A stretch of DNA of 64,000 nt from Mycobacterium uberis (GTDB lineage: Bacteria; Actinomycetota; Actinomycetes; Mycobacteriales; Mycobacteriaceae), in assembly GCF_003408705.1 (NCBI RefSeq), contig NZ_QAYL01000007.1:62001-126000 (forward strand), given 5' to 3'. Of the stretch, positions 46,837 to 55,423 are shown one piece after another. Positions within the stretch are counted from its first letter, which is position 1. Every line of letters begins with the position of its first letter. The position numbers were made by a program, and so were the translations under genes. The notes beneath the pieces are model-generated. The model did no database searches, had not been told where the DNA came from, and was given only the letters and a program-made list of their open reading frames with translations.

Positions 46837-47400
46837 TTACAGCCAGGTGTCCTGCGTGGTGGCGGTGAGGAATGCCTCTAGGTCATCGCGCCAGTAAGCT
46901 GGTGTGGTCTTATCCGGTTCGATGCCAGTGTAGTCGCCGTGATAGAACAGCAACGGCCGCGGCTTGACCTTGGGAATCTCCGACAATGAGGCAACCGCAC
47001 CAAACACCACGAAATGATCGCCGCCGTCATGAACCGACGCCACCGTGCAGTCGATGTAGGCTAGCGATCCGTCAATAATCGGCGAACCGAGTTGTGAAGG
47101 GCACCAATCGATACCTGCGAACTTGTCGGGTTCCTGCGAACCGAATCGCGCCGAAATGTGTTTCTGTTTTTCGGTCAATACATTGACACAGAACCGACCG
47201 CTAGCCTGGATGGCCTGCCAAGACCGTGACACCTTGGTCGGACAAAACAATACCAGTGGTGGGTCCAACGACAACGCAGCGAATGATTGACACGCGAAGC
47301 CGCTAGGGATCTCGTCGTGTACGGTGGTGATGATGGTGATCCCGGTGCAGAACTGACCCAGCACCTGCCGGAAAGTCCGAGAATCGATCTGCGTCGACAT
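46837..47400 (-). CDS. hsaB: Flavin reductase component of the 3-HSA hydroxylase
   Basis: HsaB supplies reduced flavin to HsaA for hydroxylation of 3-HSA in steroid ring degradation. The 187-residue protein is a flavin-reductase-like split barrel: FRQVLGQFCTGITIITTVHD, SFAALSLDPPLVLFCPTKVS, FCVNVLTEKQKHISARFGSQ and the C-terminal PLLFYHGDYTGIEP. Length equals the Mtb protein. The ATG at 47400 overlaps the hsaC stop (TGATG), so the gene is coupled to hsaC and is last in the hsaADCB series on this strand. No lesion is visible. Confidence 0.94.
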   Translation of the reverse strand: MSTQIDSRTFRQVLGQFCTGITIITTVHDEIPSGFACQSFAALSLDPPLVLFCPTKVSRSWQAIQASGRFCVNVLTEKQKHISARFGSQEPDKFAGIDWCPSQLGSPIIDGSLAYIDCTVASVHDGGDHFVVFGAVASLSEIPKVKPRPLLFYHGDYTGIEPDKTTPAYWRDDLEAFLTATTQDTWL

Positions 47401-48311
47401 CAGTGCGCTAGTCGCCGGGCGCCGACCGTGAAATCATGACCCCACAGGCTCACCGCGGTGCTTTCCCGGGCGATCCAGTCGTTATCGTCAACTCTCCTTC
47501 CTCCACAACCGAATTCAACGTCGAAACCGCTAGGCGTTTTCATGTAGAACGACAACATCAGATCGTTGACATGACGGCCCAGTGTGGCCGACATCGGCAC
47601 CTTGTGGCGCAACGCTCGGTCCAGACATAGACCCACGTCGTCAGCCTGCTCGACCTCGACCATCAGGTGCACGATCCCACTAGACGTCGGCATCGGCAAT
47701 AAGGCCAGACTGTGGTGACGCGGATTACAGCCGAAGAAGCGCAGCCAAACGGGGGCTCCATTAGTGGGCCGCCCAACGAACTGCGGCGGTAGCCGCATCG
47801 AGTCACGCAGCTTGAAACCCAGCACATCCCTATAGAAGCACAAAGTCTCGGCATCGTCACGGGTAGACAACACCACGTGGCCCAGGCCTTGTTCAGCGGT
47901 GACGAACCGGTGCCCGTACGGGCTAACCACCCGGCCATGTTCTAGAGCGGTGCCGTGAAAAACCTCGAGACAGTTGCCCGAAGGATCGGAGAACCGGATC
48001 ATCTCGTCCACCCGGCGGTCTGCCAATTCCGTGGCGGTAGCTTCTGTATACGGTGCATCTTCCACATCGAGCCGATTCCGAATCTCTTGCAGACCTTCAG
48101 CATTCGCGCATTCCCAGCCGACTTCTATGAGCCGGTCGTGCTCGCCGGAAACGATCACCATCCTAGCTGGAAAATCGTCCATCCGCAGATATAACACACT
48201 GTCGTCGCTGCCCTTACCTTCGGCCATGCCAAGGACTTTCAGGCCGAATTCACGCCAGGCTGATACATCGGTAGCCTCAATGCGCAGATAACCGAGCGAC
48301 CGGATACTCAT
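47400..48311 (-). CDS. hsaC: Iron-dependent extradiol dioxygenase (4,9-DSHA / 3,4-DHSA cleaving)
   Basis: HsaC cleaves the catechol 3,4-DHSA by meta-cleavage, opening steroid ring A with Fe(II). The 303-residue type I extradiol dioxygenase has two vicinal-oxygen-chelate modules. The C-terminal one holds the iron ligands: His in LGHVVLSTRDDAETL, His in SGIVHLMVEVEQADDVG and Glu in FDVEFGCGGRRVDDND. HSLALLPMPTSSG carries the catalytic acid/base His region. ATG 48311 shares ATGA with the hsaD stop. All ligands are present, so activity is expected. Confidence 0.95.
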   Translation of the reverse strand: MSIRSLGYLRIEATDVSAWREFGLKVLGMAEGKGSDDSVLYLRMDDFPARMVIVSGEHDRLIEVGWECANAEGLQEIRNRLDVEDAPYTEATATELADRRVDEMIRFSDPSGNCLEVFHGTALEHGRVVSPYGHRFVTAEQGLGHVVLSTRDDAETLCFYRDVLGFKLRDSMRLPPQFVGRPTNGAPVWLRFFGCNPRHHSLALLPMPTSSGIVHLMVEVEQADDVGLCLDRALRHKVPMSATLGRHVNDLMLSFYMKTPSGFDVEFGCGGRRVDDNDWIARESTAVSLWGHDFTVGARRLAH

Positions 48312-49186
48312 CTCGTGCCTCCCAGGAAATCAATAGTCAAGTTATTGAATTCGTCAAACTTCTCCACCTGCGCCCAGTGCCCACACTGTCCGAAGACGTG
48401 TAGCTGCGCACGTGGAATAGTCTTTAGTGCGACCAATGCACCGTCCAGTGGGTTGACACGATCTTCGCGGCCCCAAATCAGTAGCACCGACTGGCGTAGT
48501 CGATACACTTCGCGCCACATCATGCCAAGCTTGAAGTCAGCTCCAGCAAAAGACTTTCCCATCGCACGTGTAGCCATCAACGACTCCGGTGTGCTGGCCA
48601 ACGCAAATCGCTGATCCACCAACTCTGCAGTGATCAGGTTCTTGTCATACACCATGATACGCAGGAACGCCTCGAGATTCTCTCGGGTGGGCTCAGCAGA
48701 GAACTTCGATAGTCGTTTGACGCCCTCGGTCGGGTCGGGCGCAAACAGATTGATGCTTAGCCCGCCGGGACCCATCAACACCAGTCGCCCAGCCCGGTCG
48801 GGGTAGTCGAGAGCGAACCGCACCGCGGTACCTCCACCCAGCGAGTTGCCCACCAGCGGAACACGCTCCAGATTCAGCTGGTCGAAGAGCTCGTTGAGCG
48901 CGGTCGCGGCAAAGCGGTTGAACTGTCCATGCTCAGCGCGCTTGTCAGAGTGACCATAGCCAGGTTGATCGATGGCCAACACATGGAAATGCTGCGCCAG
49001 TACCACAATGTTGCGCGAGAAGTTCGTCCAGCTCGATGCGCCGGGACCGCCGCCATGCAGCAGCACCACTGTCTGGTCGTTGCAGACACCGGCTTCGTGG
49101 TAGTGCAGTTTAAGCGGCCTATCTTCTACCTGGACTTCCGCGAAGCGCGAGGTGGATTCGAAAGTCAATTCCTCAGTGGTGGTCAT
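48308..49186 (-). CDS. hsaD: Meta-cleavage product hydrolase (4,9-DSHA hydrolase)
   Basis: HsaD hydrolyses the carbon-carbon bond of 4,9-DSHA to give DOHNAA and a C5 dienoate. The 292-residue alpha/beta-hydrolase has the oxyanion HGGGPGASSWTNFSRN, the nucleophile elbow PLVGNSLGGGTAVRFAL (Ser about 115), the acid in LIWGREDRVNPLDGAL, and the catalytic His in VFGQCGHWAQVEKFDEF. The triad is intact and the length matches the family. Its stop overlaps hsaC by four bases and only three bases separate it from hsaA. Confidence 0.95.
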   Translation of the reverse strand: MTTTEELTFESTSRFAEVQVEDRPLKLHYHEAGVCNDQTVVLLHGGGPGASSWTNFSRNIVVLAQHFHVLAIDQPGYGHSDKRAEHGQFNRFAATALNELFDQLNLERVPLVGNSLGGGTAVRFALDYPDRAGRLVLMGPGGLSINLFAPDPTEGVKRLSKFSAEPTRENLEAFLRIMVYDKNLITAELVDQRFALASTPESLMATRAMGKSFAGADFKLGMMWREVYRLRQSVLLIWGREDRVNPLDGALVALKTIPRAQLHVFGQCGHWAQVEKFDEFNNLTIDFLGGTR

Positions 49187-49189
49187 GGC

Positions 49190-54528: not shown

Positions 54529-54584
54529 CGGCGTGTCCTCCGCGTCCCTAATTCATCGTAATATAATGAAGCACTTTCGCCCAC

Positions 54585-54598
54585 TAGAACGTGTTCTA
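54585..54598. promoter_or_regulatory. KstR operator 3 (fadE34/kstR intergenic)
   Basis: TAGAACGTGTTCTA is a perfect inverted repeat and matches TnnAACnnGTTnnA at every position. It sits 57 bases before fadE34 and 220 bases before kstR, suiting control of fadE34 and autoregulation. Confidence 0.88.
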
Positions 54599-54817
54599 AT
54601 AGTGTCGGCTATCGATCGTCCAGTCGACGGCTAGTTAACAGTTAGGACACGTCCCTCAAAGGTCGCAGTACCAATAATACGGAGGTGGGAAATTCACGCT
54701 CGGCATGCGTATCGTTTTCACACAAACCGCCTGGAAGACTGGAAGAGGAACAGCCAGTCAGATGTCGCCAGCGAACATGACTCCGACCCGCGTTGCGACC
54801 TGCGGCCGCGCGAGGCC

Positions 54818-55423
54818 ATGCACGCAGTGGTGCTGGCTGAGTCCGAATTGGGCTCGGATGCGCAACGGGAACGACGCAAACGCATCTTGGATGCAACCAT
54901 GGCGATCGCGTCGAAAGGCGGCTACGAGGCGGTTCAGATGCGTACCGTGGCAGACCGGGCCGATGTGGCCGTAGGGACGCTGTATCGCTACTTCCCGTCC
55001 AAGGTGCACCTGCTGGTGTCGGCCCTCGGGTGGGAGTTGAATCGCATCGACGCCAAGACCGATCGCTTGTCGGTATCCGGCAACAGCCCGTATCAGCGGC
55101 TGAACTTCATGGTGAGCAAGCTCAACCGTGCGATGCAACGCAATCCGCTGCTCACTGAGGCGATGACGCGCGCCTACGTCTTCGCCGACGCCTCCGCGGC
55201 CAGCGAAGTCGATTACGTCGAGAAGCTCATCGACAGCATGTTCGCGCGCGCGATGGCCGACGGCGAACCGACCGAGGATCAGTACCACATCGCCCGAGTG
55301 ATCTCGGACGTATGGCTGTCGAACTTGCTGGCATGGCTGACTCGGCGGGCCTCGGCAACCGACGTCAGCAAGCGACTGGACCTGGCCGTGCATCTGCTCA
55401 TTGACTACCAAGAGTCCAAATAG
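54818..55423 (+). CDS. kstR: TetR-family repressor of the cholesterol regulon
   Basis: KstR represses the cholesterol catabolic regulon until it binds a steroid-CoA intermediate. The 201-residue protein has a TetR DNA-binding domain: RERRKRILDATMAIASKGGY then AVQMRTVADRADVAVGTLYR with YFPSKVHLLVSAL. The ligand domain (SKLNRAMQRNPLLTEAMTRA; AYVFADASAASEVDYVEKLI) is nearly identical to the Mtb protein as I recall it. ATG 54818 or GTG 54827 are both possible starts. The operator spacing and intact HTH suggest that regulation still works. Confidence 0.95.
   Translation: MHAVVLAESELGSDAQRERRKRILDATMAIASKGGYEAVQMRTVADRADVAVGTLYRYFPSKVHLLVSALGWELNRIDAKTDRLSVSGNSPYQRLNFMVSKLNRAMQRNPLLTEAMTRAYVFADASAASEVDYVEKLIDSMFARAMADGEPTEDQYHIARVISDVWLSNLLAWLTRRASATDVSKRLDLAVHLLIDYQESK

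Follow-up and report, generated by a model that had tools for sequence, protein, structure and literature searches.

The cholesterol-catabolism genes of Mycobacterium tuberculosis lie in the Cho region (Rv3492c-Rv3574; KstR and KstR2 regulons). According to the accessible part of PMC4626898, M. leprae does not catabolise cholesterol, and its cholesterol genes are either not found or pseudogenes (same part of PMC4626898; PMC6429209, Table 2). Here we analyse a 64-kb stretch of DNA (bases 62001-126000 of contig C25, henceforth the window) from M. uberis, a skin pathogen of cattle and goats and kin of the leprosy bacilli, which carries a module of steroid-degradation genes (hsaB, hsaC, hsaD, hsaA, kshB, fadE34 and kstR). 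We found that the ring, ring C/D, import and regulator genes of the M. tuberculosis Cho region recur in M. uberis together with part of its side-chain genes, and that the window carries one end of a gene set for cholesterol catabolism that is nearly complete. Given that this set is nearly complete, that its reading frames are open and that its ratio of nonsynonymous to synonymous substitution (dN/dS) is low while neighbouring genes have decayed, we consider it likely (with a probability of roughly 75%) that M. uberis still imports host cholesterol and degrades it for carbon and energy.

The M. uberis assembly comprises 3,122,721 bp in 54 contigs, with 1,759 genes and 1,081 pseudogenes, from an organism described as uncultured (accessible text of PMC6170788); the sequenced strain is Jura (accessible part of PMC9248898). 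A published tree places the M. uberis branch point between M. haemophilum and the leprosy bacilli. For comparison we used M. haemophilum, M. lepromatosis FJ924 and M. leprae TN (strain names as in Table 1 of PMC9248898, accessible part). Among these, M. haemophilum is the nearest less-reduced relative, and M. leprae and M. lepromatosis form a sister lineage whose genomes are as reduced as that of M. uberis. Pathway blocks were located with the M. ostraviense island as query and then with M. haemophilum gene models.

The module in the window

An earlier note on this DNA, made from the sequence alone, had claimed a full-length steroid module with catalytic residues and operators amid decaying neighbours. 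All seven genes named there are indeed open, full-length reading frames. Immediately outside them lie decayed genes, a transporter remnant on the hsaB side and an Rv3575c-like gene on the kstR side, and three KstR-type sites lie in the two divergent promoters:

46837..47400, minus strand: hsaB, flavin reductase subunit of 3-HSA monooxygenase (NF045630, 319 bits, cut-off 230)
47400..48311, minus strand: hsaC, extradiol dioxygenase (NF045631, 547 bits, cut-off 450; PDB 2zi8)
48308..49186, minus strand: hsaD, meta-cleavage product hydrolase (NF045632, 504 bits, cut-off 400; motifs)
49190..50374, minus strand: hsaA, oxygenase subunit of 3-HSA monooxygenase (NF045629, 685 bits, cut-off 450; PDB 3afe)
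50480..50493, no strand: KstR-type operator TAGAACACGTTCCG, hsaA/kshB promoter, relaxed pattern, identical in M. haemophilum
50548..50561, no strand: KstR-type operator TGTAACATGTTCTA, hsaA/kshB promoter, strict pattern, identical in M. haemophilum
50607..51683, plus strand: kshB, reductase of 3-ketosteroid 9-alpha-hydroxylase (FAD, NAD and 2Fe-2S domains; synteny)
51697..52272, plus strand: Rv3572-like gene between kshB and fadE34 (no family match)
52384..54528, minus strand: fadE34 (chsE3), acyl-CoA dehydrogenase (acyl-CoA dehydrogenase domains; synteny)
54585..54598, no strand: KstR-type operator TAGAACGTGTTCTA, fadE34/kstR promoter, perfect palindrome, identical in M. haemophilum
54818..55423, plus strand: kstR, TetR-family repressor of cholesterol catabolism (NF033703, 328 bits, cut-off 280; PDB 5cw8)

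HsaA, HsaB, HsaC, HsaD and KstR were named through NCBIfam equivalog models, all scoring above the curated cut-offs. No equivalog model scored above its cut-off for kshB or fadE34, whose names rest on stop-free matches, over the full length, to their syntenic counterparts in M. haemophilum (identities of 88% and 87%, respectively). The best PDB matches were nearly or fully end to end: residues 1-394 of 394 of HsaA align with 3afe and 1-299 of 303 of HsaC with 2zi8 (which we take to be the M. tuberculosis proteins), and residues 1-200 of 201 of KstR align with the KstR structure 5cw8. The active-site and cluster motifs expected in these enzymes were all found, i.e., GNSLGG, WGRED and GHW in HsaD, GHV, HHS and VEFG in HsaC, and CRKGHCGAC plus a later Cys in KshB. 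Relative to M. haemophilum, hsaA is 96% and hsaB (stop-free) 93% identical, and the open Rv3572-like gene is 85% identical to its syntenic, stop-free counterpart. In an alignment read by eye, KstR differs from the M. tuberculosis protein by two changes, MRA to MRT and GREF to GWEL, which fall within or close to the DNA-binding domain.

The rest of the pathway in M. uberis

The earlier note had proposed looking, among others, for kshA, kstD, hsaEFG, chsE/chsH, ltp2 and mce4 elsewhere in the genome, and all of these (chsE1/E2 and chsH1/H2 in the case of the chs genes) were found open, as were cyp125, fadD19, fadA5 and the ipd/KstR2 block. On C25, to the left of the window, the open genes are mam4B/A, mce4F-mce4A, yrbE4B/A, hsd4A, fdxD, fadD19, Rv3520c and kshA; the last lies about 6.4 kb from the window and matches 2zyl (3-ketosteroid-9-alpha-monooxygenase oxygenase subunit) over its full length. 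The Mce4 sterol importer operon is thus intact, with yrbE4A/B, mce4A-F and two accessory genes open. A second contig, C46 (34,740 bp), carries open genes for rings C and D (fadE33, fadE32, fadE31, fadD3, fadE30, ipdF, kstR2, fadA6, ipdC, ipdB, ipdA and echA20), together with Rv3549c, Rv3548c, fadA5, cyp125, fadE28, fadE29, chsH2, chsH1, ltp2 and hsd4B, and with kstD, hsaE, hsaG and hsaF. Consequently the A/B-ring set (KstD, KshAB, HsaABCD, HsaEFG) and the ring C/D block (FadD3, IpdABCF, FadE30-33, EchA20 and FadA6, with KstR2) are both complete and open, and the open side-chain genes are cyp125, fadD19, fadE34, fadA5, fadE28/29 (chsE2/E1), chsH1/H2 and ltp2.

Curated models pass for KstD, IpdE2 (FadE33), FadD3, FadA5, HsaF and HsaG, among others, and solved structures were matched by CYP125, FadA5, KstR2, ChsH2 and the IpdA-type CoA-transferase subunit; HsaE, ChsH1, IpdB and several FadE proteins were named by synteny. 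A gene of the 3-beta-hydroxysteroid dehydrogenase (3-beta-HSD) family is open on contig C50, beside a gene that looks to us like xseA. Since the family 3Beta_HSD matches in 14 of 14 control genomes, the name leans on the score and on this neighbourhood. The genes for the two subunits of methylmalonyl-CoA mutase are open in all four species (M. uberis, M. leprae, M. lepromatosis and M. haemophilum).

We considered and rejected the idea that fadE28 (chsE2) is broken. The lone stop in its match lies just before an ATG start common to all 37 aligned homologues, and an insertion of about 20 residues in the N-terminal region recurs in 6 of the 36 other homologues (36 of the 119 other listed matches were aligned); we therefore do not take the gene as damaged.

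All 50 genes compared with the M. haemophilum island are open in both species, most being 83-96% identical (fadE28 78%, fadE32 79%). This includes hsaF (Rv3534c), which is open in M. haemophilum (around 3746948-3748030), encodes 360 amino acids and is 93% identical to that of M. uberis, in contrast to Table 2 of PMC6429209, where hsaF is listed as not found in M. haemophilum. By contrast, five genes that are open in M. uberis (hsaA, kshB, fadE34, kstR and mce4A) are interrupted by stops in both M. leprae and M. lepromatosis. There are 17 stops in hsaA of M. leprae and 10 in that of M. lepromatosis, and hsaD is fragmentary in both (three stops in the former; stop-free but in three pieces in the latter). 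For the genes found on C46, no orthologous match was detected within 80-kb stretches of the M. leprae and M. lepromatosis genomes (the whole genomes were not searched). Rv3520c is open in all three species. The reverse pattern also occurs: ilvX (Rv3509c), decayed in M. uberis (C25:40294-41569), has an open frame in M. leprae as well as in M. lepromatosis. As the organism is M. uberis, the published inability of M. leprae to degrade cholesterol stands uncontradicted.

Several features of the assembly bear on how the contigs fit together. Positions 33698-34740 of C46 match C25:56440-57482 in inverted orientation with 100% identity (this repeat lies within an Rv3529c remnant), and C46:1-87 equals C25:107061-106975. 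The ends of C46 thus match the flanks of an approximately 50-kb block of C25 between kshA and hsaB (C25:57483-106974; window 1 to about 44974), which occupies the exact place into which C46 would fit; this could reflect a rearrangement or else a chimeric join in the draft assembly. Window positions 1-20000 map to two distant places in M. haemophilum (about 0.893-0.908 Mb and 0.234-0.252 Mb), and positions 9185-9701 are a multi-copy repeat with nine matching places there.

Selection on intact and decayed genes

With M. ostraviense as outgroup, a simple count apportioned substitutions between the M. uberis and M. haemophilum branches. Pooled dN/dS of the 50 intact genes was 0.150 (bootstrap 0.136-0.165) on the M. 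uberis branch and 0.158 (0.137-0.182) on the M. haemophilum branch, whereas for 17 decayed neighbours it was 0.90 (0.82-0.99) and 0.22 (0.18-0.27), respectively. The two sets do not overlap on the M. uberis branch, where values for intact genes peak at 0.27 and those for decayed ones start at 0.57. Within the window we obtained 0.05 for hsaA, 0.12 for hsaB, 0.14 for hsaD, 0.19 for hsaC, 0.20 for fadE34, 0.22 for kshB and 0.23 for kstR (0.16 when these seven are pooled, bootstrap 0.11-0.20), and 0.24 for the Rv3572-like gene. The module therefore looks selected, as the earlier note had suggested.

The decayed pool holds 17 of 19 genes, fadD17 having no alignable remnant and h049 no outgroup codons. 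It includes the transporter remnant h101, whose outgroup match is probably not its orthologue and which contributes 29 of 3,261 changes on the M. uberis branch. Where M. leprae lacks an orthologue, the matches obtained are to paralogues, and we disregarded them. Taken by itself, intactness is weak evidence: at the genome-wide rate (1,759 genes, 1,081 pseudogenes), at least 50 of 67 genes would be intact with a probability of 0.02. We thus place the weight on dN/dS and on which genes were lost.

Pattern of gene loss

Many genes that are open in M. haemophilum are decayed or gone in M. uberis, i.e., fadE26, fadE27, fadD17, ilvX, Rv3510c, echA19, cyp142, Rv3519, Rv3521, ltp4, ltp3, Rv3529c, Rv3530c, Rv3531c, Rv3547, aspB, nat and others; fadE26/27, fadD17, echA19, cyp142, ltp3, ltp4, nat and aspB are among those that also set it apart from M. 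tuberculosis. The lost genes are mostly those that M. tuberculosis can do without for growth on cholesterol. Specifically, of the genes needed by M. tuberculosis for such growth (list from PMC6429209), 37 of 39 were kept, compared with 12 of 28 others (Fisher test, p = 2.5e-6, ignoring clustering). The result was similar when genes of categories a, b or c all counted as required (p = 5.4e-6), or when Rv3527, left out of the main test, was counted as kept (p = 4.1e-6); all these p values are too small, as the genes are clustered and hence not independent. Also set aside, being judged absent or unclear in M. haemophilum, were the PE/PPE genes, fadD18, Rv3517, Rv3524, Rv3525c, Rv3528c, Rv3554, Rv3555c and Rv3566A.

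Operators and regulation

The KstR sites of M. uberis fit the published pattern, whose strict form is TNNAACNNGTTNNA (accessible part of PMC1995591). Five sites at four promoters are the same as in M. haemophilum: hsaA/kshB has two, while fadE34/kstR, kshA (C25:54332) and fadD19 (C25:44852) have a single site each. The strict pattern occurs seven times on C25 (1.3 expected) and once on C46 (0.2 expected); four of these eight sites are at regulon promoters, and the remaining ones are probably due to chance. M. haemophilum keeps operators, as well as side-chain genes, that are gone from M. uberis; the lost KstR sites include those at fdxD/fadE26 and those flanking Rv3520c on either side, all adjoining dead genes. 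Unlike in M. tuberculosis, the operators at kstD/hsaE (C46:28314-28335), cyp125/fadA5 (C46:18520-18540) and mce4 carry core changes. All three KstR2 sites equal those of M. haemophilum, and both kstR and kstR2 are open. The eroded sites make a partial de-repression of the pathway possible, which we offer as a prediction.

Discussion

What we show for M. uberis is open reading frames, dN/dS, conserved operators and the pattern of loss, and several of our observations weigh against cholesterol use. Chief among them is the loss of the first side-chain cycle, with fadE26/27 and echA19 decayed and fadD17 and ltp3/4 lost as well. M. haemophilum FadE26 matches 4x28 (presumably ChsE4-ChsE5); no second fadE26 orthologue was present among eight matches in the M. 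uberis genome, where FadE29 (44% identical) comes closest among the open paralogues. Rv3531c and Rv3575c have been lost although both are required, as have ltp3 and Rv3519, which the table of PMC6429209 gives as proven essential in macrophages and mice. HsaE found no curated model match above cut-off; the operators at kstD/hsaE and cyp125/fadA5 have changed cores although both neighbours are open, as has the mce4 site (in a gappy alignment read by eye); the draft assembly stems from one biopsy; and a very recent loss of use would be invisible to dN/dS. A separate observation concerns the lost hydratase step: an open gene of 263 amino acids at window positions 43485-44276 is 44% identical to M. 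haemophilum EchA19 and could be a candidate for it.

These losses leave room for a pathway that has shifted to steroids whose side chain is short or absent (C19-C24 steroids, partly oxidised sterols) and no longer handles full-length cholesterol. The decay or absence of fadE26, fadE27, echA19, fadD17 and cyp142, with ring genes and the last side-chain cycle kept, would fit this alternative, which we nevertheless consider unlikely. CYP125, FadD19 and Mce4, whose substrate or cargo is the long-chain sterol, show the same degree of constraint on the M. uberis branch as the ring genes (dN/dS of 0.06, 0.12 and 0.06-0.21 for each mce4 gene, respectively), and M. tuberculosis still grows on cholesterol after deletion of echA19 together with fadD19, or of cyp142 (accessible part of PMC8196197).

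It is much less probable that we are looking at a remnant, orphaned too recently for its genes to have decayed. Three operators at live promoters have eroded and some genes of the island are already pseudogenes, as such a remnant might show; however, constraint over the whole M. uberis branch equals that of M. haemophilum, none of the 50 listed genes exceeds 0.27 while decayed neighbours had time to reach 0.90, and the losses track function. Stops, frameshifts and a dN/dS near 1, as in a decay remnant, are not what we found in these 50 open genes. The earlier note had named decay of kshA, kstD and mce4 with a dN/dS near 1 in the hsa genes as the sign of an orphaned cluster; these genes are open, the pooled window value is 0.16, and the dN/dS values argue against an orphaning that dates back any length of time.

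Finally, a single retained reaction (cholestenone detoxification or a signalling steroid) with no use of the carbon recalls M. leprae, in which a 3-beta-HSD is likely the sole dedicated steroid gene left and cholestenone is formed but its carbon goes unused (accessible part of PMC4626898), but is highly improbable here, as it has no need for the import operon, HsaEFG, FadD3, IpdAB, FadA6 and FadE30-33, all open and constrained; with import, side-chain, ring A/B and ring C/D genes all kept, the residual detoxifying or regulatory role that the earlier note had allowed for is less likely than catabolism.

We thus regard a pared-down but working cholesterol pathway as likely in M. uberis. With each step named after its orthologous enzyme, Mce4 would take in the sterol and 3-beta-HSD would form cholestenone; the side chain would be oxidised by CYP125, activated by FadD19 and shortened by FadE34, FadA5, ChsE1/E2, ChsH1/H2 and Ltp2. 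Rings A and B would then be opened by KstD, KshAB, HsaAB, HsaC and HsaD, with HsaEGF yielding pyruvate and propionyl-CoA, and rings C and D would be degraded by FadD3 and the Ipd/FadE30-33/FadA6 block. Propionyl-CoA could be taken up through MutAB, and KstR and KstR2 likely still control parts of the pathway. Expression, enzyme activity, cholesterol use in the animal and a replacement of the lost first-cycle side-chain enzymes are what we infer in this scheme. More tentatively, the pathway may have been pared to its working core by shedding genes that M. tuberculosis can spare on cholesterol, with the mce4, cyp125/fadA5 and kstD/hsaE operators lost so that import and entry steps would be constitutive, and with host cholesterol serving as food, the opposite choice to that of its sister M. 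leprae.

We found no earlier report of cholesterol catabolism in M. uberis in the literature searched (supplements, including Data Set S1 of the genome paper, and most subscription journals were outside the search). The words cholesterol, steroid, sterol, mce and KstR do not occur in the accessible text of the genome paper (PMC6170788), and uberis goes unmentioned in the main text of a survey of cholesterol genes from 2019 (PMC6429209).

The genome of M. uberis is as reduced as that of M. leprae, yet its pathway is under the same constraint as in M. haemophilum, so loss of the pathway would not be a general consequence of obligate intracellular life in mycobacteria. By parsimony on the published tree, the loss is placed in the leprosy lineage after its split from M. 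uberis. The two close pathogens, one with and one without the pathway, offer a natural comparison, and the pattern of loss provides an evolutionary counterpart to transposon data on dispensable side-chain genes. For an uncultured veterinary pathogen, the pathway points to a carbon source.

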